Source: Phycisphaerales bacterium (GTDB lineage: Bacteria > Planctomycetota > Phycisphaerae > Phycisphaerales > UBA1924). From it: a stretch of 64,000 bases of DNA. The notes under the pieces were generated by a model. The model was not told the origin of the DNA and did not search any database. It saw only the letters and a list, made by a program, of their open reading frames with translations. How positions within the stretch are numbered: position 1 is the stretch's first letter; each line of letters opens with the position of its first letter. Position numbers and translations under genes: made by a program. The stretch lies in NCBI GenBank assembly GCA_023382935.1, contig JAHDXL010000009.1:60325-124324 (forward strand). The letters run 5' to 3'. Shown piece by piece: positions 9,528 to 28,885 of the stretch.

Positions 9528-10264
9528 GCGGCCGCCGCGCCTTTTCGCTGCTGGAGGTGATGCTGGCGATCGGCATCGTCCTGGTTTTGTCGGGCGTGGT
9601 GTACACGTTTCTGTTTGACCTCATGGACAGCCGTGACCGGGTGGTGCGATATGGCGACCAGTCCCGGGTCGGGGTGGGGATGATCGAGACGATTGAACGT
9701 GACCTGATGACCACGCTGGCCGGGGGGACGCGATTCGGCCCCGGGCTGCGCGGATCGCCTACGTCCATGACGCTGCTGTCTCGCGGGGTGACGCTGCCCA
9801 TCGAGAACGACTCGCAGACGGTACTGGGCGACATGCAGGGGGTGCGGTTTGAGTGGGAGCGATCGAGTCGGCAACTGCGGGCCAGCCGTTGGGACGTTCT
9901 GTCAGGCGAGAGCGCGATGTCGGAGGTGATCAGCGACCAGGTTGAGTACCTGCAGTTCCGCTATTACGACGGACGGCAGTGGAGCGGGAGTTTCGACTCC
10001 GGCTCGGCGGGCAGGCTGCCGGTGGCGATCGAGGTGGCGGTGTGGTTCGGCGACAGGCAGGCGGAGACAAGTCGCGGAAGGACGCGCGGCGCTGGACTGG
10101 AAGGGCGCGTGGGCCCGAGCCGGCGTGATCTCGACGCGGCGCTGGATGCAGAATGGGAGGATGAGGAGTTGTCGGCGCCGGATCTGCCCTTGCGCGACCC
10201 GGACCGGGTGCGCGTGATGGCGGTTCCAGATGCACCTGAGGTGACCGGCGGGGGTGCCTCATGA
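9524..10264 (+). CDS. gspJ: minor pseudopilin, GspJ-like
   Basis: This 246-aa protein overlaps gspI by 4 bp. Its leader MSGRRA|FSLLE keeps Glu5 but has Ala rather than Gly at the -1 position of the cleavage site, which is unusual though tolerated in some prepilins. The helix is VMLAIGIVLVLSGVVYTFLF. 'IETIERDLMTTLAGG', 'LQFRYYDGRQW' and 'LPVAIEVAVWFGD' match the GspJ body, where a late strand reads 'lP.avev.l'. GspJ forms the tip complex with GspI and GspK. A charged C-terminal extension of roughly 60 residues (DAALDAEWEDEE) is not typical. Confidence 0.84.
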   Translation: MSGRRAFSLLEVMLAIGIVLVLSGVVYTFLFDLMDSRDRVVRYGDQSRVGVGMIETIERDLMTTLAGGTRFGPGLRGSPTSMTLLSRGVTLPIENDSQTVLGDMQGVRFEWERSSRQLRASRWDVLSGESAMSEVISDQVEYLQFRYYDGRQWSGSFDSGSAGRLPVAIEVAVWFGDRQAETSRGRTRGAGLEGRVGPSRRDLDAALDAEWEDEELSAPDLPLRDPDRVRVMAVPDAPEVTGGGAS

Positions 10265-11931: not shown

Positions 11932-13574
11932 TCCGGAACTTGCGCGGCACGTATCTACTGATCGATCTGTCGCGTGACGGCATGGCAGCAGCGGCGGTCA
12001 AGGCCGGGCCCGGGCGGCTGATGGTCCAGCGGGTCGGCACCGCGACTCGGTCCAACGTGTCGTCCGCCCCGGAGGAAGTTGGGCCCTGGCTTCGGCAGGC
12101 GCTGCGCGAGGCAGGGATTTCAACGACGCGAGCCATCTTCGCGGCCCCGCGCGGCGACGTGGTGCTCAAGGTGCTGGAACTGCCCACGGTGGGCATCCAG
12201 AGCGAGGCAGAAATCTGCGAGGCGGTGCGCCTGCAGATGAGCCGGCAACTGACGATGCCGATCGAGGATTCGATCATCGATTCAGTGACGCTCGAAGCCG
12301 GGGATGATGCGCGGGTGACCAACGTGCTGGTGGGCGCGATTCACCGCGAGCGTGTGGTCTGGTACCGCGAGGTGGCCCGTCATGCCGGACTGAAACTGAC
12401 CGGGGTGCGACTGCGCAGCGGGGGGATCGCCCGGCTGACCAGCGGGCTGGAGGGGCCGGTCCTCATCATCGCCGGGGGCATGGAAACGACCGACTACGTC
12501 GTGGCCGACCGGGGGCGCGTGCTCTTTGCCCGTTCGGTCGAGTTGAAACACGCGATCCCGGAAGTGGCCATACCGCTTCTGAGAGAGGAAGGAAGCGAGC
12601 CGGAGCCGGACCTGGCCCAGCGGACGGCGGTGGAGGCCAAACGCACGTGGATGAGTTACCGCGTGTCGCAGCGGGCCGAAGACGTGCGGGCGATCCTGGT
12701 GATGGGATGCGGCTCGGCGGCGGGTGATGTGTGCGACCGCTGCAGTGCGCTTCTCGACCTTCCGGCCCGGTGCCTGGAGTTGCCCGAGACGGTGAAAGTG
12801 CACCCCAGGGTGGACGCTGACGCGCTGGGAACATATCTGCCTCTGATCGGGCTGGGAGTTCCAACACAGAGCGCCGGGGGACTCGATTTCCTTAATCCGC
12901 GGCGGCCTCCGGACCTGGGAGCCAGGCGACGCCAGATGGTGCTGGCGGGGATATTGGGGTTGATCGTGGTCGGTGGGGCTGGGTATCTCTATCGCCAGGA
13001 TCGGCTTGATGCGCTGAATGCGGTCAAGGCGGCCCGGCAGTCGCAGTTGGACGATCTGGCTGGCGAGTATCGCCGGTATCTGGTCGAGCGGGCGCGAGCC
13101 GAGAACGTGCGACGCTGGAATGCGATGGACGCGGACTGGATCGGACATCTGTCATGGTTGAGCGAGCGTCTGCCCGATCCGCGCAGTTCGCTGGCCGACC
13201 GGGTCAACATGGCGATGACGGGCGAGGTCAAGTACGAGGGTCGCTCGTTCCCGGGTGGAGAGTGGACGAGCCAGAGCCGAGTGGCGATCGACGTGTCGGG
13301 CAAGGTCAATGACCGATCGATCGCATTGACACTGCGTGAGCGACTGCTTGAAGCGGGACTGTTCACTGTGGTCAACCGCGGGCCGGACGTCGCGGATCGA
13401 TATGACTATGAGTTGACGACGAACTTCCTGTCGCCATCAGACAAGGTTGCCGGTACACCGGCCGGCGCTTCGCCGAATGGATCGAAGCCGGAGATTGATG
13501 CTGGAGAGCGCAAGCCGGCGGATGGTGAGGGAACCAGTGGCGCTGCCGCCGGGCCGGAGGAGGCAAGGCCATGA
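11928..13574 (+). CDS. gspL: GspL-like assembly protein (PilM-like actin fold plus PilN-like periplasmic part)
   Basis: The start at ATG 11928 overlaps the gspK stop (ATGA); the long upstream open frame is spurious. Residues 1-330 have the actin-like fold of PilM/GspL (YLLIDLSRDGMAAAAVK at the N-terminus, 'IFAAPRGDVVLKVLELP', 'MSYRVSQRAEDVRAILVMG'). A single membrane helix lies near 337-356 (MVLAGILGLIVVGGAGYLY), followed by a coiled stretch and a small ferredoxin-like periplasmic domain (ids. 'VAIDVSGKVNDRSIALTLRE ... LFTVVNRGPD'), as in PilN/GspL. GspL recruits GspE to the membrane. The C-terminal about 40 residues are low complexity. The assignment rests on architecture and position as much as on sequence. 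Confidence 0.8.
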   Translation: MIRNLRGTYLLIDLSRDGMAAAAVKAGPGRLMVQRVGTATRSNVSSAPEEVGPWLRQALREAGISTTRAIFAAPRGDVVLKVLELPTVGIQSEAEICEAVRLQMSRQLTMPIEDSIIDSVTLEAGDDARVTNVLVGAIHRERVVWYREVARHAGLKLTGVRLRSGGIARLTSGLEGPVLIIAGGMETTDYVVADRGRVLFARSVELKHAIPEVAIPLLREEGSEPEPDLAQRTAVEAKRTWMSYRVSQRAEDVRAILVMGCGSAAGDVCDRCSALLDLPARCLELPETVKVHPRVDADALGTYLPLIGLGVPTQSAGGLDFLNPRRPPDLGARRRQMVLAGILGLIVVGGAGYLYRQDRLDALNAVKAARQSQLDDLAGEYRRYLVERARAENVRRWNAMDADWIGHLSWLSERLPDPRSSLADRVNMAMTGEVKYEGRSFPGGEWTSQSRVAIDVSGKVNDRSIALTLRERLLEAGLFTVVNRGPDVADRYDYELTTNFLSPSDKVAGTPAGASPNGSKPEIDAGERKPADGEGTSGAAAGPEEARP

Positions 13575-14641
13575 AGCGGACTCCCCTGGGCTTGGTGGTT
13601 CGTCTGGCGGTGCTGGGCGTGGTCTTGAGCGTGGGGTATTGGATCGTCAACGCGGCGTATCTCAAGCCGGTCGGTGCGGTGCGCAAGCAGATTGAGGAAA
13701 TGAACGCGACGTACAAGCGTGCGACCGACACGATGGAGAACTGGCCAAGCATCAAGCGTGAACTGCAGGCCTTCGGGCTGACACAGATTGGTCGAGAGTT
13801 TGACCAGGTGGAGCACCGTCTGCGGACGAGTCTGCAGGACATCGGCGAGCGGGCGGGGCTTCGTGCGGTGCAGGTGAGCAATGGACCTCCCAAGGCCGAG
13901 CGGACGCCCCTGGCCGCGGCCCGGCTTCGCGGCAAACTCGGGCGAGAGTTGATGGAGGCACAGGATTTTGCGGTGGTGAAAGGGACGTTCAGCGGATCGG
14001 GGTCGCTGGAACAGGTGGTGCGGGCGGTCGCGTTCCTGCAGGTGCAGCCGTGGCTGCACCGCATCGAGCGGGTGTCGATCGAGCCGCGGGGTCGGGAGCG
14101 TCAGGCGTTTGGGCTGGATGTGGCGTTTTCGGTGGCAATTGCGCCCGATTTGTGTCCGCCGAACGCGGCCATGCCGCCGATCGTGGAGCCCGATGAGGAG
14201 TTGGTGAAGAAGGCGGTGCGAATTGCGCAGAGAAACGTGTTCGTCGCACCACCGGTGCAGGCGCCTAGGCCGCCGGTGGTAGACCCGCCTGTTGATCCGA
14301 TCGTGCCGCCTCCGGCCGTGCCCCCGGCGTATGACCGCTGGAAGTTGACCGGCTTGCTGGAGCGCCGGGTGGACGGGCAGACCGTGAGCGTGGAGGCATG
14401 GCTGATTCAGACGCAGACGGGTGAACGCCGCATCCTGCGTCCTGGCGACGACGTGCTGGGACACGTATTCGAGTGGGCCGAGGGAGAGCGGGGGTACTTC
14501 GTGTTCGAGGGAAGAAGGTTCGTGATCAGACAGGGCCAGACCCTGGCAGATCGCGTGCCGGCCGATCAGGTAGACTCTCCGGCGTTGGGTGGAGGAACCG
14601 CCCCGATGCCCGGAGCCAAGGCGGGTGAAGGAGAAGGATGA
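13571..14641 (+). CDS. GspM/PilO-like protein with a GspC/PilP-like C-terminal domain
   Basis: This 356-aa protein has an N-terminal membrane helix (LVVRLAVLGVVLSVGYWIVNAAYL, about 8-31), a helical segment (VRKQIEEMNATYKRATDTMENW) and a ferredoxin-like region to about 200, the plan of GspM/PilO. From about 190 it reads 'RIAQRNVFVAPP', a Pro-rich linker, then 'RWKLTGLLERRVDGQTVSVEAWL', 'RRILRPGDDVLGHVFEW' and 'GYFVFEGRRFVIRQGQTL'. That is the beta pattern of the GspC homology region or PilP, the part that contacts the secretin N0 domain. No separate gspC is present in the window, so a fused M-C protein is a plausible reading. Overlaps with gspL and gspD are 4 bp each. The fusion is inferred from pattern, not from alignment. 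Confidence 0.72.
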   Translation: MKRTPLGLVVRLAVLGVVLSVGYWIVNAAYLKPVGAVRKQIEEMNATYKRATDTMENWPSIKRELQAFGLTQIGREFDQVEHRLRTSLQDIGERAGLRAVQVSNGPPKAERTPLAAARLRGKLGRELMEAQDFAVVKGTFSGSGSLEQVVRAVAFLQVQPWLHRIERVSIEPRGRERQAFGLDVAFSVAIAPDLCPPNAAMPPIVEPDEELVKKAVRIAQRNVFVAPPVQAPRPPVVDPPVDPIVPPPAVPPAYDRWKLTGLLERRVDGQTVSVEAWLIQTQTGERRILRPGDDVLGHVFEWAEGERGYFVFEGRRFVIRQGQTLADRVPADQVDSPALGGGTAPMPGAKAGEGEG

Positions 14642-17600
14642 TGGAGCGCACCGAGAGCGGACGAGCGGCGATGAGAGCGGCAGTGGCGGCGACGTTGATC
14701 GCGGCAGCTGGTTTGCCGGTCTCGGCGGTGCTTGGGCAGGAGGCCGCGCCGGCGACAACGGGGGGTCAGAGCCCGCCGGCCGCACCGGCGGAAACCCGCA
14801 TCCGGTTCAATTTTGATGGCGTTGCGTTCGACCAGGTGCTGGACTTTTTCGCGCGTGAGACCAACCTGCCGGTGGTGCGTGAGGCGCCGGTGCCCGACGG
14901 GACGCTCAAGTTCATCAGCGCCCGTGACTTTGCGCTGGGCGAGGCGATCGAGGTTTTCAACTTCAGCCTGCGCACGCGCGGCGTACGCCTGGTGCACGAG
15001 GGCGACTTCCTGTACCTGCGGACGATCGAGGGTGCGGCCACCGACGCCCGCCCGGTCAGTCCCGACGAGTTGAAGAACACCAGTGACCGTGATGCGTCGG
15101 AATATGTGACGACGTACATCCCGCTGAACAACGCGACGGCCGACACTGTGGTCGAGCAGATCAAGCCGTTGATTCGTCCGCCGGGCATGGTGCAGGCAAT
15201 CGCGCGGCAGAACATGCTGATCCTGGTAGAGACGGCTTCGCAGTGCAAGCGGATCTACGAGATCATCAGCCAGGTTGACATGGTGCGTCCGGCGGACATC
15301 ACGATGAAGGTGATTCCGCTTCGCTACACGCAGGCCGAGCAGATCGTCGCGACGCTCAAGGGTCTGATCCCGGAACTGGATCAGATCATGGTGAAGGACA
15401 AGAACGACAACGCGCGTCTGATCGACGACGTGAGCAAGCCGCCGATGAAGATTCAGGCGGACACGCGGATCAACGCAGTGGTGGCGGTAGGCCCGACTGG
15501 GCGCATGCCGCTGGTGGATGAGTTGACCTCGATGCTGGATTCGCCAACGGGCGGTGGCGCGGCCGTAAACGAAGGCCCGCAACTCAGGGCTTTTGAAGTG
15601 GTGGGTGTGACGCCGACGAAGGCGGCTGAGCAGGTCAATGCGCTGTTCCGGGCACTGCCCGAGGCGCGGCGCCCGAACGTGCAGGGCTTGGAGAATGTCT
15701 CGCGCGTGATGGTGGTCGGCACCCCGGACCAGTTGGTGCAGGCGAAGGCGCTGCTGGAGGTGATCGACCCGGTTGCGGCGGGAGAGATGCGCGTGGATCG
15801 CGCGGCTCGAGTGATCGGGATCGAGCACCTCTCGCCGGATCAGGCGATGGCGATTGCGCAGCGCTTGCTCACGCCGAGGCAGAGTCACTCGCTGAACATG
15901 GCGGCGGCGCCCTCGGGCAGAGGGCTGATTGTCGCGGGGCCATCGAGCGACGTGGATGCGCTTGAACAGTTGGTCAGGGGCATCGATGTCAAGGCGGACC
16001 TGCGGCAGGAGGTCCGGGTGGTGACGCTGACGAGCGGCAACATTGAACAGGTGATCACCAAGGCGCGCGAACTGGACAACCTGACCGAGGAGGCGGCCAA
16101 GGATCCGGTCAGGTCGATCGTTGACTCGGCGGCTCGGACGGTGACGCTCGTGGGTTCGAGCGCCGGACTGGCACGTTTCGAGCAGCGACTGCGTTCGGCC
16201 GAGCAGAGCATCGTGGTGGAGCGCGAGTCACGCACCTATACGGTGACCAACGTCAAGGCTTCCGAGTTGGTTTCGCGGCTTTCGAGCGTGCTGCGCCCGA
16301 TGCTTGAACCGGATGACGGGACGGCATATGTGGCGCCGACGATGGAGGCGATCGACGAACTGAGCCGGTTGATCGTGCGAGCACGCCCGGAGCAGTTCTC
16401 GACGATCGAGGGACTGGTGCAGCAGTTTGACCAGGTGCGCCCCGGCGAACGGCAGATGCAGGTGATGTCGCTGCTCGGGCCCGATCCTGAAAAACTGATC
16501 GGTCGCGCGATGGAGTTGTACCGGGCGCAGACGGCCGGCATGAACGACGCCGAGGCCGGACCGATCGAATATGAGATCGATGGGGTGGCGGGCAAGTTGA
16601 TCGTCAAGGGGCGCGCGGAGGCGTTGCGGCTGTTTGGCGCGGCCCTGCAGCAGGCGCAGCAGTTGATGCCCCCGGAGCGGACGACACGACTGATCGAGGT
16701 CGAGAACGGAAACGCGATCGACCTGGTGGCGCCGCTGATGGAGTTCCTCGCGTCGGCCGACTCGATCGACCCCTCGCGTCAGGTGCCGCCGGCCGGGGTG
16801 GTGGCGGTGGAGCGGACCAACTCGCTGATGGTGACAGCCGAGGAGGCCCAGCACCAGTTGATTGCCGACTACGTGAGGCGGCTGGACCGGATCGAGCAGT
16901 CGAACCTGCCGCCGCTGAAGTTGCTCCAGTTGCGCACGGCCGATGCGGCGAATATCGCGGGGATGCTGACGCAGCAGTATGCGCAGCGCGCGCCGAGCGA
17001 CCGGGTGGCGCGTCCGGTGGACATTCGCGCCGACGTGGCGACGAACACGTTGATCGTGGCGGCGCACGAGGAGTTGTTTGACGATATCAAGTCGTTCGTC
17101 GATGACCTGAACACCGAGCGATCGGATGAACCGGAGCGCATCACGTTCCTGTTCCCGCTCAAAGTCGCCAAGGCGGTGGACGTGGCGGTGGCGATGGACA
17201 AGTTGTATCCGCAGCCTCCGATGCCGGCCGACCGGCTTGGACGCCCCATGCCCTGGCTACAGGAGCCGAAGGAAGTGACGGTTTCGGCCGATCCTTCGAG
17301 CAATTCGCTCATCATCGACGCGCCGGCCGATCGCGAGAAGTCGCTGCGGGAACTGGCGGAGAAGCTCGACCGGGTCGAGGTGCCGCCGGTGGCCGAACTG
17401 CGCACGTATCACGTCGTAAACGCCGACCTGAACTCGGTGGCGCGGATGCTGCAGGGGCTGAGCCAGAACGGCTCGCTGAGCAGCCCGGCCAGCACGGGGC
17501 GCCCGAAGGTGCCGGTGGTGATCGAAACCGAGCCCCGGAGTTCGACGCTGATCGTCGCGGGCGATGAGGTGACGTTCGAGAAGGTCGAGCAGGTGCTCAA

Positions 17601-20600
17601 GAGCCTGACGGCCGTGCCAGTCGAACGCGGACTGCGAATCGTGCCGATCGCCAACGCAGACGCGGGGGAGGTGCGTGATCGCGCGCTGGCGATTTACGGT
17701 TCGCAGATCGCGGCGATTCCGGACGCGCAGCCGGTGGACGTGACGATCGACCGGGCATCGAACTCGTTGGAAGTCGTGGCTGACGTCGAGGCAATGACTC
17801 GGTTCATGAGAATCCTCGACGAGTTGCAGCGGCAGATCGGTCCGGCGCGTGAAGTTCGGATGATCGAACTGCGCCTGGCCCAGGTAGGCGAGGTGATCGG
17901 GTTCCTTCGCGAGATGGTGAGCGCGAGTGAATCGCTGAAGGTGAGCGGCGGACCGGAGCCGGTATTCGAGCCGATCGAGACGACCAACTCGCTGCTCATT
18001 GCCGCGCAGCCGGCCCAGTTCGCGGTCATTGAGCAACTGGTGCGGAGCCTGGACAACCAGCAGGTGGCCGAGCGCCCGCCGCTGCGAATCATGAAACTGC
18101 GTTCGACGGATGCGGCGAACTTGGCGAATGTGCTCGAACGCTCGTACTCGCAGCGCCCGGCCGAGGAACGGGCCAAGAAGCCGGCAGACATCCAGGCTGA
18201 CGCGGCGACCAATACGCTGATCGTGTCGGCGCACGACGATGTCATGGCCGAAATTCAGTCGATTGTGCGCGAGTTGAACGAATCGACTTCGTTCGACGAG
18301 GCCGATCGCCAGATCCGCATTTTCCCGCTCAAGATCGCGCGGGCGGAGGAACTGGCCCGGACGATCGACGAGATGTATCCCGAGCCGCCGATGCCGCGCG
18401 ACCAGCGGGGCAATCCGCGTCCTGATCTGCAGCGTCCGAAGGAAATTTTCGTGAGAGGCGACCGGGCGACCAACTCTCTGATCGTGGATGCGCCGACGGA
18501 GAGACTGGCGGGCTTCGAGCAGATCGTCGCGTCGCTGGACAAGGCCAAACTGACGGAGAACGTGGAACTGCGGACCTATCGCGTTGAGCGTGCGGACCTG
18601 GCGGCCGTGCAGGCGACGCTCAAGCAACTGGCCGACAGCGGGGCCCTGTCGAGCAACGTGCAGTCACCCATCACGATCAACGCCGAGCCGGCCAGCCGCA
18701 CCCTGGTGGTGAGCGGCCCGGTGGAGATGTTCGATCGGGTCGAGGCGGTGCTCAAGGACGTGGACGCCAAGTACGCGCTGCCCGCGACCACGCTGCGGAT
18801 GTATCCACTCAGGCACGCGAGGGCGGAGCGGATCAAGACCGTGATTGAGCAAATGCTCTCGGCCCGCCTGCGCGAACAGCGGCGTGAGCAGGGGCTGGCG
18901 GTCGAGCCGGAAGACCTTCTGGAAGTGGCGTCGGATGCGTCTTCGAATACGCTGATCATCTCGGCTCCCGAGGCCTTGCAGGAAGCGGCCAGGCAGTTGA
19001 TCGAGGTTCTGGACACCGAGGCTGCGGCCCTAGGGCGTTCAACGGTGCGCGTGATTCCGCTGACCTACGCCGAAGCCAACCAGGTGGCGGCTACGCTCAA
19101 CCAGGCGCTGCCGACGATGGACCTGCCGAGCGGGGAGAAGGTGTCGATTCTCCCCGCAGCCAGTTCCAATGCGCTGCTGCTGGCCGGTGCCGACGCGGAC
19201 TTGAAGAAGGTGGAGTCGCTGATCGAACCGCTGGATCGGCAGCCGTTCGACCCAGAGAAGCCGGACGTGCGGACGTTCCCGCTGGAGCACGCCGACGCGG
19301 CGACGATTGCCAAGACAGTGGAGCGATTGCTGGTCGACCAGCAGCAGACCGACCCCCGCATCCTGATGCTGCAGATGAGGGCGAGGAACTACCAGTATGC
19401 CGAGACGCCGAAGATTCGCGTCGAGGCTGAGCCGCGGACCAACAGCCTGATCGTGTCGGGTCCGACGGCCACGCTGGAACTGGCGGGGGCGATGATCGAG
19501 CGGCTTGACCAGCCGGCCGAGGATCCCGGGCGCAAGACTGTGACGTTTACTCCGGCTCACGCCGATGCGGCCCAACTGGCGGCAACGGTGAGCAAGTTGA
19601 TGCAGTCGGTTCTGCCGCAGGGGCGGCGACCGATGGAGATCGTGGCTGAGCCGACGTCGGGCACGGTGCTGGTGATCGGGCAGGCGGAGGAAGTGGCGCA
19701 GGCGGTTGCGCAGTTGGCCGAGATCGACGAACGGGCGCCGGCGCTGCCGATGGTGGACGTCAAGTCATTTGAACTTTCACACGCGGATGCGGCGGGGGTG
19801 GCGACGGCCGCTCGGTCGCTGCTGGGCGATCAGTCGCGGTGGCCGATGTCGCTGGTCCGCGCGCAGAAGGCCGGCGTGCGTGTGCCGGCGGTGTCAGTTG
19901 AGCCCGATGCGAGAACGAATCGACTGCTGGTCAGTGCGCCATCGGCGCTGATGCCGCTTGCCGAGCAGTTGATCGGAACGCTCGACCGGCCCCGGCAGAA
20001 CGGCACGATCGAAGTGCAGGTGTTTCGACTGGAGAAGGGCAAGGCCGACTCGGTCGCGACGGCGCTGCAGCAGGCGCTTGCGGCGGGTCTGGAGCCGGGA
20101 GAGAAGCCCGCGACGGTGACGGCCGAGTTGGCGAGCAACTCGCTGGTGGTGGCCGCGTCGAGCGAGCGACTCGCCCGCGCGGGCGAGTTGATCAAGTCGA
20201 TGGACGAAGCGGTCGAGCCGGCGGGCGTGGGTGTTCGAACGGTGTATCTCGAGCACGCTCAGGCCGAGGCGATCGCGCCGCTGGTGCAGCGCATCATCCA
20301 ACGCGACGATCCGCTGGCCGGGGCCGACGCATGGTCGCGGTCGTTCCTGATGCGCGACATGCTGCGATCGGGGTTGAAGATCGAGGACGCGCCGGTGAAG
20401 GTCGTGGCCGAGCCGAGGCTCAACGCACTGGTGATCAGCGCGCCCGCTTCGGTGCTCGAACTGGCCGAACAGGTGGTCAGGGGGCTGGATGTGGACCGCG
20501 GCCCGGGCGGTCCGGGCAGCGATCGCGTGGTGCGTGTGATCACGCTGACCAATGCCGACGTGAGCGCCCTTTCGTCCAACATCGGCGAGTTGTTCACCAG

Positions 20601-23600
20601 CGATCAGAGCGGGCAGGTTCCGCCGACGGTGAAGGTTGACGCACAGAGCAACTCGTTGATCGTGCGCGGCACCAGCGAACAGATCGCCAGCATCGAGGGG
20701 TTGGTCAGGCAACTGGACGCGGCCACGCTGAGTTCGTCGCGCCAAATGCGGCTGATCACGGTGGACCGTTCGCGCGCCGATGCGCAGTTGATGGCACGGA
20801 CGATCCAGCGTCTGCTCGAACAGCAGGGCGGTGTGAAGGTGGAGGTGATCTCGGCCGAGGAGTTGATGAATCGGCGGGAGAAGGAGGGTGGACAGAGCGG
20901 CGACGCCCGCCCCTTTCGACCCATCTTCCACGGGCTCCGGGCCTGGGTGATCGGACACGCCGTCGCGGCCCAACCCGCTGGCGAGTCGAGCCCGGAAGGT
21001 GAAGAAGCATCGATCGTCATCGCGATTGATCCGGCGACCAACTCGCTGCTGGTCGTCGGTTCGCCGCGTCTGACGGATCGCGTGGCGGTCCTCGTCTCTG
21101 AACTCGAGAAGCAGATGCCCGCTGAGCCGACGGGTGTGCGCATCGTCACGCTGCCGTCGACGGCCGACGCACGCAACGTAGCGGACATCGTCGCGCAGAC
21201 GGTGCGAGAAGTGGGCCGCAGCAGCACGACCAACCCGGGCGGCTTCACCGGCAACGTCTCGGTGCGGCCGGACCCGGTGGGCAACGCGGTGATCGTGTGG
21301 GCAAACGAAACGGATTTCGACGCGGTTTCGCAACTCATCACCGGCGTTTCGAGCCTGGCGAGCACGATCGAAGTGACGGTCAAGGTCTACCCGCTTCAGA
21401 ACGTATCGGCCCGACAGGCGGTGGCGTCGTTGCAGGATCTGCTCAGCCCTTCGCCGCGGGGGCGGCAGGCCCAGCAATTGTTTGACATGACGCTGCGCGG
21501 GCCGGACGGACGCCCGGTGCGGGCGCGTGTCGACCCGGGCCGCACCAGCCTCGTGGCGGATCCCAGCGACAGCGCCCTGATCGTCGCCGGTACGGATGAG
21601 ACCATCGCGCTGGTCGATCGATTCATCGGCATGCTCGACCTCAGCCCGGTGTCCAACCGCATGGCCATCCGGCAGTATCCGCTCAGGAGCGCGCAGGCGG
21701 GCGAACTGGCGCAGACGTTTCAGTCGCTCTTCGACGCGCAGCGGACGGGCGCCGGTCGCCAGGCACAGGCGATGCCGCAGGCACGGTTCGTGCCCGACCA
21801 GCGCACCAACAGCATCCTGGTGACCGGCACCAGCGAGCAGCACGCGGAAGTGGTGCGGCTGCTCGCCGAGGCGGACATGAAACTCGACGACGCAAGCGTG
21901 GAGTTGGCAATCATCCCGTTGCGAAACGCATCTCCGACGGCCGTGCGTCGGATCGTTGAGCAGGTTGTAGTGGGTCGCGATCCGGCGCAGCGGGAGCGGA
22001 TCCAGATTTCGGCCGAGGATACCTCGCGACTGTTCGTCGTGAAGGCGCCGAAGGAGGACATGGAGCAGATCCGAGGCATCGTCGCGCAGGTAGACGAAGT
22101 GGAGGTTGGCAGTTTTCCGATCCGATCAATCAGGCTCAAGACGGCCAACTCGCTGGAAGTGGCGCAGCAGTTGCAGCAGTTCTTCCGCGAACGGGGCAAC
22201 ATCTCCGGGCGTCGCGGACCGCAGAGCGGGGGAGCGGCCATCGTCGGCGACGAGCGCAGCGGCACCATCGTCGTGTCGGCGTCGGACCACGACTTCGAAC
22301 AGATTGCCTCGATGGTCGAGATGTTTGACGTACCGGCCGAGAGCCAGCAGGTGCAGTACCGGATTGTCGAACTCAAGAATGCGCGTGTGACCGATATCCG
22401 CAGCACGGTGGAGAACCTGGCGTGGGAACTGCAGAACGAGCGCATGGGCGGCTGGTGGGGCGGGGGCAATCGTCGTTCCAGCGCCGCCACGGGAACGCTG
22501 CTGGTTGAAGCGAACGAACGCACCAACAGTCTGCTCGTCTTCGGGCAGGGCGAAACGGTCGACACCATGCTCGAGATCATCGCCCAACTCGATCGCCCGC
22601 TGGCCGAGCAGACGCGACTTGAAGTGCGCGCGATCAGGGCGAAGGGCTCCGACCTGGCGGCCACGGCGCAGATGATCGAGCGGGCGACCGCTACTCCGGG
22701 ATGGCGCAGTTGGCAGGGACGGGATCCCGACCTGGTGAACGTAGAGGTAGATCGCGAGCGCGGGATCCTGATTCTCATTGGCGACAAGGCGCGCGTGGAC
22801 CTGGCCGAGGGGTACGTTCGCCAGATCGCCGAGGCCGGGGTCGAGGCTGGGCGTTCCGTCAGGTCCGTCAAGTTGCAGCATGCCGATGCCAACAACGCGG
22901 CCGCGAGTTTGTCGCGGTTTTTCACCGACCGGGCCCGGGCTCAGGGTCTGCGCGAGAGCGGCGTTTCGGTGATCGGATCGCGGGAGGGCAACCTGCTATT
23001 GATCTCTGGAGACGAGACCGAACTGGCTATGCTCGATGAACTGGTCGCTCAGATCGACCAGCCCGAACTGGGCGGCGACCGCGTGATCGAGATGATCGGC
23101 GTCAAGCACATCGACCCGGCCGAGGCGGTGCGCACGGTGCAGCAAATGTTCCCCTCGCGCCGCGGCGATGAACAGGTGATCGTGTCGGCCCAGCCGAACC
23201 AGAGTTCCGTGCTGGTCTCTGCCCGGGCCGAGGATGTCCAGAAGATCCGCACGTTGCTGGGGCAGATCGATACGCTTCCATCGGCAGAAACGGCGAAGAT
23301 CGTGACCGTGCCGCTCAAGTCGGCGCGAGCGGCCGACATTGCCAGCACGCTGCGCGACGCGCTGCCCGATGGTGTGCGTGTCCAGATTACGCCAATGGCA
23401 CGCACGAACTCGGTGATGCTGACCGGTTCGGAAGAGGCCATCGCACTGGTACGTGAGCAAATCGCCGGCCTCGACGTGGAGACGGCGCAGTCTCCCGTAG
23501 AGTTCCGTCGCATCGAGATCAAGCACCAGTCGGTGTCCGATGTGGCATTCACCGTGCGGGCCATGATGCGAGGCCGCCCGCGCACGCCCGGCACGCCCGA

Positions 23601-26600
23601 GGCGAACTTCGATCCGGTGTACGACACGAATGTGCTGGCGGTGACTGCGTCTGCTGACGAGATGCCATTCATCGAGCAGATCATCCGGGAGATTGACACT
23701 CCAAAGGCGTCGAACCGGCGGACTCAGTTCGTCAAACTCGTCTACGCACCTGCTGAATCGACGGCCGAAGCACTCAAGGTTTTCTACGGTCGTCTGGCAC
23801 CCGAAGCAGCCACGCCCGCGCAGCGCGACGTGACGATCGTGCCCGATCCGGCGACCAACTCGCTGGTGATCAGTGCGGACGAATCGGTCTGGGGCGGCGT
23901 CGAAAGCCTGCTCAGGCAACTCGACACGGAGGAGTACGACACATCGCAGCAACTGGTGGTCATCCCGCTGCGGCACGCCGATGCGCGCAGCGTCGCGCAA
24001 GCCCTCAATGAGGGCCTGCGGGCGCCTCTTGAAGATCAACTGCGCCGCGAGCAGATGCGCCTGCGCGAGGAGAACCGCGGGCGCAGTCCCAACAACGACT
24101 TCTACGAGCCCACCGTTCTGGTCAGCACCGAGGGCACGCCGACCGTGTCGGCCGAGGTGCAGACCAACTCGCTGATCGTCTTTGCGGGGCGCAAGGAACT
24201 GGAGCGCATCGAGGCGATCGTCAAGCAGTTGGATGTGCCCGACTTCATGCGTCTGCCCCAGCCGCGTGTCATCCCGATCACCAGCGGGCGGGCCTCGGTG
24301 ATCGCCGGGGCCATTCGCCAAGCCTTTGCCACGCAGGGTTCGCGGGCGGGAAGTCCGCGCGAGGTGGTGGTGATCGGCGACGACACCAGCGGAACGCTCA
24401 TCGTCCGGGCCGACGATGAGCAGTTCGAGCAGATTCTCTCGCTTGCAACCACGTTGACCGAGCAAGTGGCTGGCACGCAGGCATCGCCGCGCGTGCTGCG
24501 TTTGAAGCATGTGCCGGCCGTGCGCATGCGCGAGACACTGGTGACGACGTTCACCCCCCTGGCACAACAGCGCAACGAGGCCTTGGCCATCGCGGTCGAC
24601 AGAAACAGCAATGCGCTGATCATCTCGTCGAGCGACGAACTGCACCAGCAGATCGCGGCCCTGGCGGGCGAACTGGACACCGGCCCGATGGGATCTCAGC
24701 CCGAGGCGGCGCCGGGCAGTATGAGCACGCTCGGACAGACGGTGTTGATCGTCGACGTGTCCAACCACGCGCCCGCGGACATGGTGCGCATGCTCGATGT
24801 CTTCGGCGTCACGCGGGCTCAGCCGGCCGACCGGGCCGGCCTGGTGTCCGAACCGGTCACGCTGGTGCCGCTGACGAGCCGGCGCGGGCTGGCGATCATG
24901 GGCTCGCAGCCCGACGTGCTTGTGGTCGCTGAACTGATTTCCAGGCTCGACACGCCGCCGATTGCATCTGCACGGCAGGACATGGTGGTTGTCCCGCTGC
25001 GATTGGGCGACGCGACCAGCGTGGTGGCTTCGATCAATGCGATGCTTGACACGGCGCGGCAGGCCCCGGGTTCGCCGGCAGTGGCCGCGCTGCGTGAGCA
25101 CATCCGCAGGCTCAACCTCCTGCGCGACGGCTTCGACGACAAGCCAATCGAACTCGACCTGAACACGCCGATCCGTGTCATTGCAGACACGGCGACCAAC
25201 TCCGTGATGATCGGCTCCAGCCAGGCCAACGTAGCGGCGATCCGCGAAATCATCAGCCTGTTTGATCGCCTGCCGGTCGGCGAGGCGTTGGTGGTTCGGA
25301 TTTTTCCGCTGGAGAACTCTTCGGCCCAGTCGCTGCGTCCGATCATCGAGGAACTCTTTCGCGAAAGCGAGCGTCTGCGTACCCAGCCGGGAACGCGGCG
25401 TGTCGGCATGCCCAATACGGCCGTCGGTCAGGCACTCGCCGGCGCCATCGCAGTCTCCGTCGACGAGCGCACCAACGCGCTGGTCGTGGCCGGGCGCGAG
25501 GAGGCGCTGGCCCTGGTTGAAGTGCTGATCCGGCAACTCGACGGTGACGACGCCGAACGCGGCTGGATCGAAGCCCACGTCGTGCCGCTCAAGTATGCGG
25601 ATGCGGTCCTTCTTGCCCGCAAGATCGACGAGGTGCTGGTCCGCGGCCTGGGTGACACGCCCGACGAAGTGGGGCTCCAGCGTCAGGTCGGGCGTCTGCG
25701 CCTGGTGCTGGGCGATGGCGCCGAGTCCAAGGCTGTTGATTCCGATGTTTTCGCGCCCATGGCCGGCCTGGTGGTCACGCCGGAGGAGAACCTCAACGCG
25801 CTCATCGTGGTGGGCACACCCACCAACGTCAAGGTGGTGCAGGAACTGGTCAAGACGCTCGACGTCGAACTGGCCAGTGCCCAGAACGCCGTGCAGGTGA
25901 TTCCGCTGCAGCACGCGGCGGCAGACCGGGTGTCATCCATTCTCACCCAGATTTTCCGCCAGCGCGAGGCGCTACCGACGTTCCGCCCGGAAGATCGCGT
26001 GGTGATCAGCGTGGATTCGAGGACGAACGCGCTGGTGGTGTCAACCAGTCCGCGCAGTTTTGAGTTGCTGCGCGGGCTGCTCAACACGCTCGACACCGAG
26101 GAAACGCGTTTTGCGGTCGGGCTGCACGTGGTGCAGGTGCCCAATGCCGACGTGCGCGACCTGGCGCCGAAACTTCAGAGGCTGATGCGTGAACGCATCC
26201 AGGCGACGCGACGAAGCGGGGACTTGCAGTCTCCCGAAGATGTGTTCAGCATTGAGCCGGTGCCTTCGACCAATTCGCTGATCGTCGCGGCCAGCGACGA
26301 AAACCTCGCGCTGCTGCGGGAGTTCATCGAGAGTCTGACCAGCGGCGGGCGAGCGATCAGCGACGCCGAGCGCATGGAATTGATTCCCATCGAGTCTCCC
26401 GGGCGGGCCAGCGAGATCGCCCAGGCGGTGAACTCGCTCTACGTGCAGAAGGAGAACGAGCGTCGCGGGGACCGATCGGTGACGCTGATCGCCAATGACC
26501 GGCTCAACGCGCTGATCGCCACGGGCACGGCGTCCGACATCGCCGCCATTCGCGGCTTCGTGGCCCGGCTCGACCAGGCACGGGTAGAAACGGTGCAGGA

Positions 26601-28383
26601 GTTCAAACGCATCGCGCTCGACTCGGCCAGCGCCACCGACGTGGTTCGACTCCTTCAGGACGCGCTTGCCGGCCGCACCATCGGTGGCCGGGGTACCTCG
26701 ACACAAGCCACCCTGCTGCGCGTGTACGCACCAGAGATTGAGGAGGCGATCGCCGAGGCGACGATCGACGGAGACATCCGCGACTACATCAAACTGACGG
26801 CCGATACGCGCACCAATTCAGTGCTCGTCCTGGCGCCGCCAGAGATGATGCGCCTGATCTTGAGGGTCATCCAGGATCTGGACCTCGACCGCCGGGGCGA
26901 CCGGGTGATTGAAGCGTTCCAACTGGTCAATGCCGATGCGCAGGCCATGGCCGTTCTGCTGGGAGAACTGTTCAACCTGCGTCAGATGGGCGACAGCCTG
27001 GTGCTGATCCCCACGCGAGGCGAGGAGCAAGAGGATCAGCAACAAGGCCGATTCACGCCAGTGCCCGACCCGCGCCAGGAACTTTCGATCACGGTCGACA
27101 GACGCACCAACACGCTCCTGGTGTCCGGAACGCAGGAGTACCTCCGGGAAGTGCGCGAGGTCGTGACGCAACTGGATCAGATCCAGGCCCTGGAACGCGA
27201 GCAACGCGTTGTGAACCTGCGCAATGCGCAGGCCAAGGCGATCGAGACCACCCTCCAGAATTATTTCGAGCGTGAGGCCGAGCGACGCCGCCTCACGCTT
27301 GGTCCGCAGCGGGCCGAGAGTTTCATCCGCCAACTCGAGCAGGAAGTCACCGTCATCGGCGACGAGAAAAGCAACAAACTGGTTATCTCGGCTTCGCCGC
27401 GCTACATGGACACCGTGGCCAAGATCGTTCAGGAACTCGACGCCTCGCCGCCGCAGGTCATGATCCAAGTTCTGCTGGCCGAGGTCACGCTCGATGAAGC
27501 AGAGTCATGGGGCGTGGACATCAACATCGGCGGGGTGGTGGCCAAGAGCAAGATTGGCGGTGACGGGTACGTGTTTGAAAGCCTCGCGGGCGGCGCGGGC
27601 GTGGCAACGTCACTGGGCGTACCCAACTTCTCTGTCGCCAGCACCGACTTCACCCTCTTGCTCCGTGCTCTGGAAGAGCAGGGTCGGCTCGAAGTGCTTA
27701 GCCGCCCGCACGTGATCGTCAACAACAATGAAGAAGCGTCGATCAACGTCGGCGAGAACATCGCCATCGTGACTGGTGTCGATCGCGATCAGTTCGGCGG
27801 GTCCAACGCCAACGTCGAGCGTCGCGACGTGGGCATCATTCTCAACGTTCGCCCGTCGATCTCTTCAGACGGCTTCGTGCGCGTCGCAATCGCGCCGGAG
27901 ATCTCGCAGTTGAGCCAGCGCTCCGTCGAGATTGACGAGAATTTCAGTGCGCCCATCATCACCCAGCGACTGGTCGACACGACCGTGACGGTCAAGGATG
28001 GGCAGACCGTGGTCATCGGGGGGCTCATCCAGACCATCGATGAATACCGCAAGACCAAGGCCAAGGGACTGGGCGACCTTCCGCTGCTCGGGGCCCTTTT
28101 CCGAACCAAGGACCAGTCCAAGGTCAAGACCGAACTGCTCGTGATCCTGACGCCCTACGTCATTCCTGGCGAAACGCCGCAGGCCGAGTTGCGTCAGCGC
28201 GCGCTGTCCGAGCGACATCTGCTCGAGATGACCGATCCCAAACCGATCTTTGACGCCCTTGGCCACCCAGGCGGGTTACCCTCGGTCGATGGTAAAGACG
28301 GGCCGGTGAGGCTGCCCGAAAAGGCCCCGATGATCGACGACGCATGGCTCCGAGAGCCGCGAGAAGAAGATGATCAGAAGTAA
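14638..28383 (+). CDS. gspD: giant type II secretion secretin GspD with about 50 tandem N-domains
   Basis: One uninterrupted 4581-codon frame starts at ATG 14638 (GAAGGAG ribosome-binding site, ATGA overlap with the M gene). A signal peptide covers about 1-34. An N0/STN-like domain spans about 53-134 (IRFNFDGVAFDQVLDFFARE). From about 152 to 4273 the chain is a tandem array of roughly 82-residue units of the secretin N1 (NolW-like) type: strand 'v..ipL..a.a..va..l..l', variable loop, then 'v..d..tNsLiv.a......i..li..LD'. I parse about 50; normal GspD has three. A complete outer-membrane secretin domain follows (4274-4510, VMIQVLLAEVTL, VIGGLI, LPLLGALF, LTPYVIPG), then a 70-residue polar tail. 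Codon use is uniform along the gene. Function is inferred to be the outer-membrane exit channel of this T2SS. Confidence 0.93.
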   Translation: MMERTESGRAAMRAAVAATLIAAAGLPVSAVLGQEAAPATTGGQSPPAAPAETRIRFNFDGVAFDQVLDFFARETNLPVVREAPVPDGTLKFISARDFALGEAIEVFNFSLRTRGVRLVHEGDFLYLRTIEGAATDARPVSPDELKNTSDRDASEYVTTYIPLNNATADTVVEQIKPLIRPPGMVQAIARQNMLILVETASQCKRIYEIISQVDMVRPADITMKVIPLRYTQAEQIVATLKGLIPELDQIMVKDKNDNARLIDDVSKPPMKIQADTRINAVVAVGPTGRMPLVDELTSMLDSPTGGGAAVNEGPQLRAFEVVGVTPTKAAEQVNALFRALPEARRPNVQGLENVSRVMVVGTPDQLVQAKALLEVIDPVAAGEMRVDRAARVIGIEHLSPDQAMAIAQRLLTPRQSHSLNMAAAPSGRGLIVAGPSSDVDALEQLVRGIDVKADLRQEVRVVTLTSGNIEQVITKARELDNLTEEAAKDPVRSIVDSAARTVTLVGSSAGLARFEQRLRSAEQSIVVERESRTYTVTNVKASELVSRLSSVLRPMLEPDDGTAYVAPTMEAIDELSRLIVRARPEQFSTIEGLVQQFDQVRPGERQMQVMSLLGPDPEKLIGRAMELYRAQTAGMNDAEAGPIEYEIDGVAGKLIVKGRAEALRLFGAALQQAQQLMPPERTTRLIEVENGNAIDLVAPLMEFLASADSIDPSRQVPPAGVVAVERTNSLMVTAEEAQHQLIADYVRRLDRIEQSNLPPLKLLQLRTADAANIAGMLTQQYAQRAPSDRVARPVDIRADVATNTLIVAAHEELFDDIKSFVDDLNTERSDEPERITFLFPLKVAKAVDVAVAMDKLYPQPPMPADRLGRPMPWLQEPKEVTVSADPSSNSLIIDAPADREKSLRELAEKLDRVEVPPVAELRTYHVVNADLNSVARMLQGLSQNGSLSSPASTGRPKVPVVIETEPRSSTLIVAGDEVTFEKVEQVLKSLTAVPVERGLRIVPIANADAGEVRDRALAIYGSQIAAIPDAQPVDVTIDRASNSLEVVADVEAMTRFMRILDELQRQIGPAREVRMIELRLAQVGEVIGFLREMVSASESLKVSGGPEPVFEPIETTNSLLIAAQPAQFAVIEQLVRSLDNQQVAERPPLRIMKLRSTDAANLANVLERSYSQRPAEERAKKPADIQADAATNTLIVSAHDDVMAEIQSIVRELNESTSFDEADRQIRIFPLKIARAEELARTIDEMYPEPPMPRDQRGNPRPDLQRPKEIFVRGDRATNSLIVDAPTERLAGFEQIVASLDKAKLTENVELRTYRVERADLAAVQATLKQLADSGALSSNVQSPITINAEPASRTLVVSGPVEMFDRVEAVLKDVDAKYALPATTLRMYPLRHARAERIKTVIEQMLSARLREQRREQGLAVEPEDLLEVASDASSNTLIISAPEALQEAARQLIEVLDTEAAALGRSTVRVIPLTYAEANQVAATLNQALPTMDLPSGEKVSILPAASSNALLLAGADADLKKVESLIEPLDRQPFDPEKPDVRTFPLEHADAATIAKTVERLLVDQQQTDPRILMLQMRARNYQYAETPKIRVEAEPRTNSLIVSGPTATLELAGAMIERLDQPAEDPGRKTVTFTPAHADAAQLAATVSKLMQSVLPQGRRPMEIVAEPTSGTVLVIGQAEEVAQAVAQLAEIDERAPALPMVDVKSFELSHADAAGVATAARSLLGDQSRWPMSLVRAQKAGVRVPAVSVEPDARTNRLLVSAPSALMPLAEQLIGTLDRPRQNGTIEVQVFRLEKGKADSVATALQQALAAGLEPGEKPATVTAELASNSLVVAASSERLARAGELIKSMDEAVEPAGVGVRTVYLEHAQAEAIAPLVQRIIQRDDPLAGADAWSRSFLMRDMLRSGLKIEDAPVKVVAEPRLNALVISAPASVLELAEQVVRGLDVDRGPGGPGSDRVVRVITLTNADVSALSSNIGELFTSDQSGQVPPTVKVDAQSNSLIVRGTSEQIASIEGLVRQLDAATLSSSRQMRLITVDRSRADAQLMARTIQRLLEQQGGVKVEVISAEELMNRREKEGGQSGDARPFRPIFHGLRAWVIGHAVAAQPAGESSPEGEEASIVIAIDPATNSLLVVGSPRLTDRVAVLVSELEKQMPAEPTGVRIVTLPSTADARNVADIVAQTVREVGRSSTTNPGGFTGNVSVRPDPVGNAVIVWANETDFDAVSQLITGVSSLASTIEVTVKVYPLQNVSARQAVASLQDLLSPSPRGRQAQQLFDMTLRGPDGRPVRARVDPGRTSLVADPSDSALIVAGTDETIALVDRFIGMLDLSPVSNRMAIRQYPLRSAQAGELAQTFQSLFDAQRTGAGRQAQAMPQARFVPDQRTNSILVTGTSEQHAEVVRLLAEADMKLDDASVELAIIPLRNASPTAVRRIVEQVVVGRDPAQRERIQISAEDTSRLFVVKAPKEDMEQIRGIVAQVDEVEVGSFPIRSIRLKTANSLEVAQQLQQFFRERGNISGRRGPQSGGAAIVGDERSGTIVVSASDHDFEQIASMVEMFDVPAESQQVQYRIVELKNARVTDIRSTVENLAWELQNERMGGWWGGGNRRSSAATGTLLVEANERTNSLLVFGQGETVDTMLEIIAQLDRPLAEQTRLEVRAIRAKGSDLAATAQMIERATATPGWRSWQGRDPDLVNVEVDRERGILILIGDKARVDLAEGYVRQIAEAGVEAGRSVRSVKLQHADANNAAASLSRFFTDRARAQGLRESGVSVIGSREGNLLLISGDETELAMLDELVAQIDQPELGGDRVIEMIGVKHIDPAEAVRTVQQMFPSRRGDEQVIVSAQPNQSSVLVSARAEDVQKIRTLLGQIDTLPSAETAKIVTVPLKSARAADIASTLRDALPDGVRVQITPMARTNSVMLTGSEEAIALVREQIAGLDVETAQSPVEFRRIEIKHQSVSDVAFTVRAMMRGRPRTPGTPEANFDPVYDTNVLAVTASADEMPFIEQIIREIDTPKASNRRTQFVKLVYAPAESTAEALKVFYGRLAPEAATPAQRDVTIVPDPATNSLVISADESVWGGVESLLRQLDTEEYDTSQQLVVIPLRHADARSVAQALNEGLRAPLEDQLRREQMRLREENRGRSPNNDFYEPTVLVSTEGTPTVSAEVQTNSLIVFAGRKELERIEAIVKQLDVPDFMRLPQPRVIPITSGRASVIAGAIRQAFATQGSRAGSPREVVVIGDDTSGTLIVRADDEQFEQILSLATTLTEQVAGTQASPRVLRLKHVPAVRMRETLVTTFTPLAQQRNEALAIAVDRNSNALIISSSDELHQQIAALAGELDTGPMGSQPEAAPGSMSTLGQTVLIVDVSNHAPADMVRMLDVFGVTRAQPADRAGLVSEPVTLVPLTSRRGLAIMGSQPDVLVVAELISRLDTPPIASARQDMVVVPLRLGDATSVVASINAMLDTARQAPGSPAVAALREHIRRLNLLRDGFDDKPIELDLNTPIRVIADTATNSVMIGSSQANVAAIREIISLFDRLPVGEALVVRIFPLENSSAQSLRPIIEELFRESERLRTQPGTRRVGMPNTAVGQALAGAIAVSVDERTNALVVAGREEALALVEVLIRQLDGDDAERGWIEAHVVPLKYADAVLLARKIDEVLVRGLGDTPDEVGLQRQVGRLRLVLGDGAESKAVDSDVFAPMAGLVVTPEENLNALIVVGTPTNVKVVQELVKTLDVELASAQNAVQVIPLQHAAADRVSSILTQIFRQREALPTFRPEDRVVISVDSRTNALVVSTSPRSFELLRGLLNTLDTEETRFAVGLHVVQVPNADVRDLAPKLQRLMRERIQATRRSGDLQSPEDVFSIEPVPSTNSLIVAASDENLALLREFIESLTSGGRAISDAERMELIPIESPGRASEIAQAVNSLYVQKENERRGDRSVTLIANDRLNALIATGTASDIAAIRGFVARLDQARVETVQEFKRIALDSASATDVVRLLQDALAGRTIGGRGTSTQATLLRVYAPEIEEAIAEATIDGDIRDYIKLTADTRTNSVLVLAPPEMMRLILRVIQDLDLDRRGDRVIEAFQLVNADAQAMAVLLGELFNLRQMGDSLVLIPTRGEEQEDQQQGRFTPVPDPRQELSITVDRRTNTLLVSGTQEYLREVREVVTQLDQIQALEREQRVVNLRNAQAKAIETTLQNYFEREAERRRLTLGPQRAESFIRQLEQEVTVIGDEKSNKLVISASPRYMDTVAKIVQELDASPPQVMIQVLLAEVTLDEAESWGVDINIGGVVAKSKIGGDGYVFESLAGGAGVATSLGVPNFSVASTDFTLLLRALEEQGRLEVLSRPHVIVNNNEEASINVGENIAIVTGVDRDQFGGSNANVERRDVGIILNVRPSISSDGFVRVAIAPEISQLSQRSVEIDENFSAPIITQRLVDTTVTVKDGQTVVIGGLIQTIDEYRKTKAKGLGDLPLLGALFRTKDQSKVKTELLVILTPYVIPGETPQAELRQRALSERHLLEMTDPKPIFDALGHPGGLPSVDGKDGPVRLPEKAPMIDDAWLREPREEDDQK
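16450..17625 (+). repeat. five-domain block, copy A, inside gspD (residues about 605-996)
   Basis: This 392-residue block of five N-domains aligns unit by unit with the next block (17626-18786). Shared landmarks in the same order are: 'R.m.ly..q.a.m' against 'R.lAiYgsqiaai'; 'LLQLRTADAANIAGML' against 'IMKLRSTDAANLANVL'; 'ATNTLIV.AH'; 'LYPQPPMP' against 'MYPEPPMP' with a following 'GRPMPWLQEPKE' against 'GNPRPDLQRPKE'; and 'ELRTY.V..ADL'. This points to a segmental duplication rather than one-by-one growth. Confidence 0.8.
17626..18786 (+). repeat. five-domain block, copy B, inside gspD (residues about 997-1383)
   Basis: This is the second copy of the five-domain block, 387 residues and directly adjacent to copy A. 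The PPMP insertion loop appears in the fourth domain of both copies and in no other part of the array that I can see. Confidence 0.8.
19039..20520 (+). repeat. three consecutive two-domain units inside gspD
   Basis: Three units of two domains lie at 19039-19533, 19534-20004 and 20005-20520. In each, the first domain is compact and the second carries a longer loop with a similar Met/Leu/Arg-rich segment (LMLQMRARN, SLVRAQKAG, LMRDMLRSG), followed by 'V.aEPr.N.L.vSaP'. The recurring period of two suggests another round of unit duplication. Confidence 0.6.
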
Positions 28384-28885
28384 GTTCAATCGCCCGCCCT
28401 GCCCGCTGGCTCTGGGACTGGCCCTGCTGGTCGGCATGGGTGGCTGCGCTTCGTCGGGGGGCTCCCGTCCAAAGCCGCCGCCTGTTTCGCAGCGCCCGCC
28501 GGTGCAGATCCAGTTGACCGTGGGCCTGCCCAGCGACTCCGACGGCAACGGATACCCCGATACGGTGCAAGCCATCGCCTATTTGTTTCCGGCCAACGAC
28601 GACAGCAAAGAATCCAAACTTCCCGTTGCTGCCAAGGGGACGTTCGAGTTCGTAATGCAAAATGCAGCGGGCACAGTGCTGGCCCGCTGGGTCTTCCCCC
28701 CAGAAATTGTGGACCGTGCAGCCCGTCGTCTCCCCGCCGGCGTAGGGTATTCCATGTACCTCCGTCTGGCCGAGGGTGAAGATGTCATGGCCCCTACGGG
28801 GGTGGACGTTCGTTGCCGGTTCATTACCGTTGAGGGTGTAGAGGTGCGAGGACTTGGGCGGGCCACAGTCCGCCTCGGCGGGTAG
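28370..28885 (+). CDS. small lipoprotein, candidate secretin pilotin
   Basis: This 171-aa protein overlaps the end of gspD by 14 bp, so it is very likely co-translated. Residues 1-25 are a lipoprotein signal ending in the lipobox VGMGG with lipid Cys26 and Ala at +2, so retention in the inner membrane by an Asp+2 rule is not expected. After a Pro-rich stretch comes 'VQIQLTVGLPSDSDGNGYPDTVQAIAYLF', then a compact beta-rich domain. I do not recognise the family. Position directly after the secretin gene and lipidation suggest a pilotin-like role (GspS/OutS analog) in moving or assembling the giant secretin at the outer membrane. There is no sequence evidence for homology to known pilotins. The 87 bp after it contain a repeated CGCGATCT but no clear terminator. 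Confidence 0.75.
   Translation: MIRSKFNRPPCPLALGLALLVGMGGCASSGGSRPKPPPVSQRPPVQIQLTVGLPSDSDGNGYPDTVQAIAYLFPANDDSKESKLPVAAKGTFEFVMQNAAGTVLARWVFPPEIVDRAARRLPAGVGYSMYLRLAEGEDVMAPTGVDVRCRFITVEGVEVRGLGRATVRLGG

Follow-up and report, generated by a model that had tools for sequence, protein, structure and literature searches.

A giant GspD-type secretin of the type II secretion system (T2SS) is encoded in the window, the 64,000-nucleotide stretch of a Phycisphaerales genome analysed here (contig JAHDXL010000009.1), and its roughly 50 N-domains probably stack into a periplasmic conduit more than 100 nm long. The gene (14638-28383, forward strand) is a single ATG-to-stop frame of 4581 codons with no internal stop, and GAAGGAGAAGG lies directly 5' of its ATG. 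Described T2SS secretins typically have an N0 domain and three further N-domains, a number that varies and is not a condition of membership. GspD, XcpQ and PulD (PDB 5wq8, 5ngi and 6hcg) likewise combine N0, N-domains of the same fold, a barrel and a pseudopilin operon; the giant differs in having about 50 N-domains instead of three and 4581 residues instead of about 650, and some of its relatives, unlike these secretins, are divided over two or three exported chains.

The chain begins with a signal peptide (residues ~1-34; 14638-14739), read by eye in the translation, followed by an N0 domain (residues ~54-130; 14797-15027), an array of 50 N-domains (residues 161-4270; 15118-27447) and a secretin barrel (residues 4344-4509; 27667-28164; PF00263, E = 3.7e-45), all on the forward strand. 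By sequence the N0 was weak, residues ~67-304 matching XcpQ N0-N1-N2 structures (4e9j, E = 5.3e-4) with none of the matched stretches significant by itself; by fold it was clear, a model of residues 36-470 matching secretin N-domains in Foldseek (PulD 6hcg, E = 7.4e-15). The barrel region (residues 4151-4530) matched PDB 5wln (E = 1.9e-39). Signal peptide, N0-like domain and a single normal barrel had all been called in the initial annotation, which also counted about 50 N-domains; the numbers found here clear the floor of about 15 significant hits that it had set for its claim. Pfam recognized 47 Secretin_N stretches (1310.8 bits in total) and one Secretin domain in the open reading frame (ORF), a hidden Markov model (HMM) iterated from a single-domain seed over the protein and its relatives gave 50 N-domains spaced by 5-22 residues, a broader retrained HMM gave 49, and a Secretin_N search of the genome yielded 48 matches, 44 in the giant frame and four in two other secretins. 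The count of 50 is uncertain by a few, the models giving 44-50. Both Pfam and the predicted fold assign the units to the Secretin_N (beta-alpha-beta-beta-alpha) type, as had been claimed, the structure models folding them as secretin N-domains; KH-domain matches in the Pfam scan are probably due to the N-domains' KH-like fold. The GspD equivalog TIGR02517 scored 1226.5 (cut-off 351.35), a sum over 22 stretches inflated by the repeats, while the PilQ model TIGR02515 scored 413.9 (cut-off 284.35), well under the GspD score, and the surrounding genes are T2SS-like. A recent tandem array was ruled out by the scarcity of repeats in the ORF, where just two short ones were found, one of 21 bp and one of 22 bp, each in two copies, by the 27% mean pairwise identity of the N-domains within the protein and by the register kept in relatives.

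An assembly artefact or a frameshift was ruled out by independent relatives with the same uninterrupted frame, and the single open frame of the initial annotation stands. Frames of 4591-4616 aa were found in four related loci, L039 (91% identical), L040 (68%), L042 (57%) and L043 (45%). Against L039 the giant showed a dN of 0.053 and a dS of 0.682 (dN/dS ~0.08), and the highest dN/dS of any single domain was 0.253. The search for relatives was restricted to proteins of 0.55-1.75 times the giant's length and returned 579; the counts below refer to the 120 among the matches listed, which together with P0001 make a set of 121 (P0001 and P0002 being the window's own protein). Exactly 50 N-domains were found in 62 of the 121 proteins, that is, in 60 of the 119 others, within a range of 33-63. 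In the 61 proteins with 50 domains, P0002 included, the best match was the same-numbered P0001 domain for 99.4% of the domains. Other relatives change by whole-domain blocks, lacking for example 18-21, 7-11, 8-12 or 33-34, or having 6-8 doubled. These changes cluster in N-domains 5-34 (16015-23274); N-domains 1-4 (15118-15993) are nearly always retained in collinear relatives (exception P0108, without 1-12), and N-domains 35-50 (23305-27447) are seldom altered (exceptions P0075, at 44-45, and P0121, at 41). Five proteins with 55-63 domains (P0036, P0069, P0088, P0094 and P0110) were collinear with the giant near the C-terminus only, and two further groups of giants, of 36-48 and 25-52 domains, also keep their order, with a collinear fraction of at least 0.8 in 61/62 and 51/56 proteins, respectively. 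Automatic annotation has named giants in database records, for example 'type II secretion system protein D'.

A neutral ratchet, in which functionless whole-domain duplications accumulated and were merely not removed, is extremely unlikely: the spread in domain number and the lack of a giant in some close relatives would fit it, but the low dN/dS and the presence of 50 domains in 27 of the 54 proteins whose barrels are only 50-60% identical to the giant's argue against it. Quite unlikely, at a somewhat lesser degree, is that length itself is unselected and the array serves as a sleeve that binds substrates or guides the filament, its N-domains offering different surfaces to cargo or pseudopilus. 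Domains so diverged from one another and yet so strongly kept in relatives would suit such a sleeve, as would the substrate contacts reported for secretin N-domains in the excerpted text of PMC5646246; against it, some relatives lack up to 17 of the domains (33 remain in P0121), which suits a tuning of length better than it suits a unique binding role for each mid-array domain. Sleeve and stacked tube can both hold.

That the giant is an oddity of one genome was ruled out by the relatives found across the class, and the search for homologs suggested by the initial annotation revealed a patchy family of the class Phycisphaerae. At least 33 of 139 class genomes had their best barrel match in a frame of 3000 aa or more (hand count, among the matches listed), and a giant frame was present in 5/9 class-sample genomes of the window's own family. 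The named relatives are planctomycetes, in line with the link to Planctomycetota drawn earlier: they are metagenome-assembled genomes labelled Phycisphaerae, Phycisphaerales or Planctomycetota, with one exception under a Cyanobacteria title. The exception is the contig of L039 (RHKP01000005.1, 'Cyanobacteria bacterium CYA N2_1'), and with a locus 91% identical to the window's its label is likely wrong. Outside the class (164 of the 191 genomes of the phylum sample), no barrel was found in a frame of at least 1500 aa among the matches listed. In one planctomycete outside the class (G380:C1:3838232-3838465) an N-domain match falls in an open frame of 2701 aa, a frame not among the barrel matches listed for the phylum sample. 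P0267, a giant of 3955 aa and 42 domains, stands in a record labelled Verrucomicrobia, which points either to a misbinned record or to an occurrence of the form outside Planctomycetota. Position-specific HMMs mapped on 20 class barrel chains labelled domain 42 in 20/20 and domain 50 in 19/20, with 43 adjoining 42 in 18 and 49 preceding 50 in 12. Because these domains recur across the class barrel chains, the block near the barrel is likely the oldest part of the array.

The array is divided over separate genes in part of the class, as seen in a survey of 33 stretches (L047-L079) from 33 class genomes picked by frame lengths. Nine genomes of family f19 encode it in a pair of neighbouring genes. 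The upstream chain lacks a barrel and measures 2601-3041 aa in the complete cases, L058-L062; the downstream chain, of 1517-1764 aa, bears the barrel. Three genes share the array in L065 (family f21), and two do so in L071 (f17) and in each of L064 and L067, which belong to a single genus of f2. The starts of four upstream chains lie beyond the data, at contig ends (L063, L071) or stretch ends (L077, L079). The claim of one GspD chain consequently holds for the window protein and fails for these relatives, which are split into two or three genes, mostly inside an N-domain. At 12 of 14 junctions the chain upstream breaks off within an N-domain's first half, these 12 half-domains matching model positions ~1-7 to 22-35 of 70 with E-values from 1e-6 to 0.03; in 11 of the 14 the downstream chain begins with a second half-domain, defined by a model start of at least 20 and ignoring matches with E above 0.03 (L060 was scored in a separate analysis). 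Signal peptides were detected in 12 of the 14 downstream chains by a simple script and in the remaining two, L060 and L078, by eye. The two halves of L064 fitted the 146-position model of domain 25, one at 2-50 (E = 7.9e-14) and the other at 75-145 (E = 1.9e-14). A separate protein search listed at least 14 barrel-less chains (P0245-P0258; P0245 is the query's own and P0247 partial). Two N-domain proteins listed without a barrel, P0262 (3794 aa) and P0263 (4181 aa, partial), are bigger than the f19 chains, and P0262 ends, by eye, in a first half-domain. The upstream ends of L058-L063 are Arg-rich, their last 20 residues carrying a net charge between +5 and +9; in L058-L062 these tails face N-terminal stretches that are acidic or polar in some of the downstream chains, so that electrostatic docking is possible.

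These junctions bear on the flexible beaded chain that the initial annotation offered as an alternative. In that case ring formation would be confined to the barrel and the few N-domains nearest to it, and the rest would be a loose chain reaching the inner-membrane platform or catching substrates. Such a tether draws on the uncertain domain orientation in the models, on the better conservation of block 35-50 and the barrel and on the secretin N-terminal domain being called highly flexible in the excerpt of PMC5646246. Each of the 50 domains, however, holds its own identity and place, the linkers between domains are short, and the gene splits would break a covalent tether, mostly leaving complementary half-domains; since a tether gains nothing by sharing a domain at the break, the half-domain joints speak against it. 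The beaded chain is thereby weakened and now appears doubtful, if still a contender.

Comparable seams were found in one-piece giants. In group B (P0125-P0187) 60/63 proteins had a linker 90 residues or more in length, typically 14.5-15.5 domains before the barrel, which gives the same domain count as the f19 split. The group B seams listed as examples run from a first half-domain through a basic Gly/Ser/Arg tail, a hydrophobic stretch to AxA-Q and the linker to a second half-domain. In a shuffle test confined to group B, a signal-peptide-like pattern occurred at 57/60 seams versus 7.1% of shuffles, the sequences being related and not independent; in the table of seam conservation, the columns concerned are inflated by the alignment of its rows at the cleavage motif and their selection by hydrophobicity. 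Group C showed a similar linker in 56/57 proteins, 9.5-14.5 domains from the end. The counterpart in the window protein's group is the long insert of N-domain 25 (residues ~2062-2125; 20821-21012, forward strand). It contains a degenerate signal-peptide-like stretch, lies at a different place (26th from the end) and marks the position where L064 and L067 divide into two genes. Domain 25 has a median length of 135 in this group, versus 56-102 for the other domains. Its insert, with a hydrophobic stretch weaker than that of the group B seams, reached the hydrophobicity threshold in 77% of sequences versus 25% of shuffles, a modest signal, as only 29.5% of single sequences exceeded 95% of their own shuffles; an AxA-like motif was present in 56/61 inserts. 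Near the insert start (20857-20868), GAGGAG lies 3 bases 5' of an in-frame ATG, a possible internal start with short spacing. Internal translation starts found no support as a general rule for seams, a Met being found 15-35 residues before the cleavage site in only 23/57.

With half-domains paired around a signal-peptide-like stretch at their seams, the one-piece giants have the appearance of exported segments that became fused. By topology rules, a signal peptide within a chain already crossing the membrane is oriented wrongly for normal cleavage, which makes processing at the seams speculative. It is plausible, and we put it tentatively, that the secretin is segmented, its exported chains being joined by an N-domain to which each contributes one half, and that the one-piece giants are fusions that retain the seam signal peptide and may in some lineages be cut there after export, yielding those same segments, the whole being a modular secretion nanotube of tunable length.

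In the proposed machine the N-domains would stack as rings, with N0 toward the inner-membrane platform and the barrel in the outer membrane. A stack of 51 N-rings at 2.0-2.7 nm each would be ~102-138 nm long, and a 12- to 15-mer would have a mass of 5.9-7.4 MDa (both computed); for comparison, the N0-N1-N2 rings of XcpQ are given as 80 Å high, of which 20 Å is cone, in the excerpted part of PMC5646246. The pseudopilus of the operon would work at the base of the stack or inside it. Length would be set in whole domains, by gains and losses mostly in mid-array with the two ends mostly kept. The tube is likely segmented, some lineages exporting two or three chains that would share one N-domain at each joint. 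The idea of rigid linkers and free loops was dropped, their median per-position spread being similar (SD 1.24 and 1.30). The T2SS channel would in this way be carried across a locally widened periplasm. Planctomycete periplasm can be greatly enlarged and convoluted, according to the excerpt of PMC5394234; no periplasm width for the window's lineage was found in the literature searched (open-licence papers, most subscription papers lying outside it).

The giant gspD is the last gene of a T2SS operon, preceded by F, G, H-, I-, J-, K- and L-like genes and a single-transmembrane GspM/C-like gene, all on the forward strand: GspF (6204-7400; PF00482; TIGR02120, 309.1 bits, cut-off 424), the major pseudopilin GspG (7521-8132; PF08334; TIGR01710, 98.7 bits, cut-off 88.85), a GspH-like minor pseudopilin (8071-8973; weak prepilin N-terminal motif, in the same place in L039-L041), a GspI-like minor pseudopilin (8670-9527; TIGR01707, weak at E = 0.0016, present in L039-L042), GspJ (9524-10264; PF11612), GspK (10261-11931; PF03934 and HHH, with NF037980 below its cut-off), a GspL/PilM-like protein whose true start is internal to the ORF (11733-13574; PilM_2 and pilM, each below cut-off) and the GspM/GspC-like inner-membrane protein (13571-14641), which overlaps the gspD start and was assigned by operon position and by eye. 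A GspE/PilB-type ATPase is encoded on the reverse strand (2830-4509; PF00437 and MshEN; TIGR02533, 579.2 bits, cut-off 630.25). The order of the operon is largely retained in L039-L043, with H, I or L undetected in the most distant ones. A small lipoprotein gene (28370-28885, forward strand; lipobox by eye) overlaps the gspD end and is a pilotin candidate by place only; it adjoins gspD in L039, L040, L042, L054, L055, L064 and L067 and was not found next to gspD in L043. Further downstream (30040-35192), a PstS-like gene is followed by two ABC permease genes of 942 and 805 aa, unusually long for PstC/PstA, with the BPD_transp_1 match confined to their C-terminal parts.

Several observations weigh against a segmented T2SS conduit of this length. 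At the junctions, two of the 14 upstream ends depart from the half-domain rule (L065 junction 1 and L078), three of the 14 downstream starts are looser (L061, L062 and L065 junction 1), three upstream half-domain matches are weak (E = 0.025-0.027), and 9/13 split loci come from one family, so the splits represent few events. Relative domain orientation was poorly determined in the models (pTM 0.39 and 0.40), and the model match to V. cholerae GspD had a rmsd of 16.4 Å. Of the operon's machine components GspG alone scores above its NCBIfam equivalog cut-off; GspE and GspF fall below theirs, and H and I are weak. The product of 13571-14641 had no family match, and a PDB profile search for a GspC HR domain in it gave only unrelated weak matches; a pilotin PDB profile search with the lipoprotein gave no relevant match. 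The only prepilin-peptidase match of the genome (PF01478, E = 4.2e-4) was below cut-off, in an assembly ~95% complete. No giant was found in four of the nine sampled genomes of family f1, so it seems dispensable. Described Phycisphaeraceae isolates are reported without crateriform structures in the excerpt of PMC8882080, so that the giant cannot be matched to any surface structure known so far; a link to these structures, which the excerpt of PMC5394234 (Boedeker 2017) ties to membrane-contact sites, is unsupported. Three further secretins of ordinary size, in frames of 835, 885 and 1139 aa, coexist in the genome. The periplasm is accordingly unlikely to be 100 nm wide wherever these work, a uniformly wide periplasm is doubtful, and the tube would be used at locally wide places.

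Among known systems, the PilQ of Thermus thermophilus forms six rings, is ~35 nm long with its secretin domain and works in a periplasm of ~70 nm, according to excerpts of PMC5745081 and PMC4463427. The likeness, as far as those excerpts go, lies in extra stacked N-rings that span most of a wide periplasm; the difference is that PilQ belongs to a type IV pilus and DNA-uptake system and is one chain with six rings, versus the predicted 51. We know of no shared half-domain in RcpC of the Tad pilus. RcpC is described (PMC12307814) as a separate periplasmic ring protein that serves the pilus as a conduit, as the barrel-less chains of the split relatives might be. The giant is a variant of the T2SS secretin, extra N-rings as such being already known, with six in Thermus. 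No secretin of such size, nor about 50 N-domains, a fixed register or a division of chains within a domain, was found described in the literature searched, in agreement with the initial annotation.

The predicted tube would be far longer than the secretion channels familiar to us. If the stack is ordered, no secretin conduit that we know of would exceed the giant in length, and its relatives would provide a natural series of tubes, from ~33 to 63 rings, relating channel length to envelope width. The split-domain joints, if real, would show a very large ring machine being assembled from separately exported pieces. For the planctomycetes themselves, the giant secretin offers a molecular handle on the long debate over their wide and folded periplasm.
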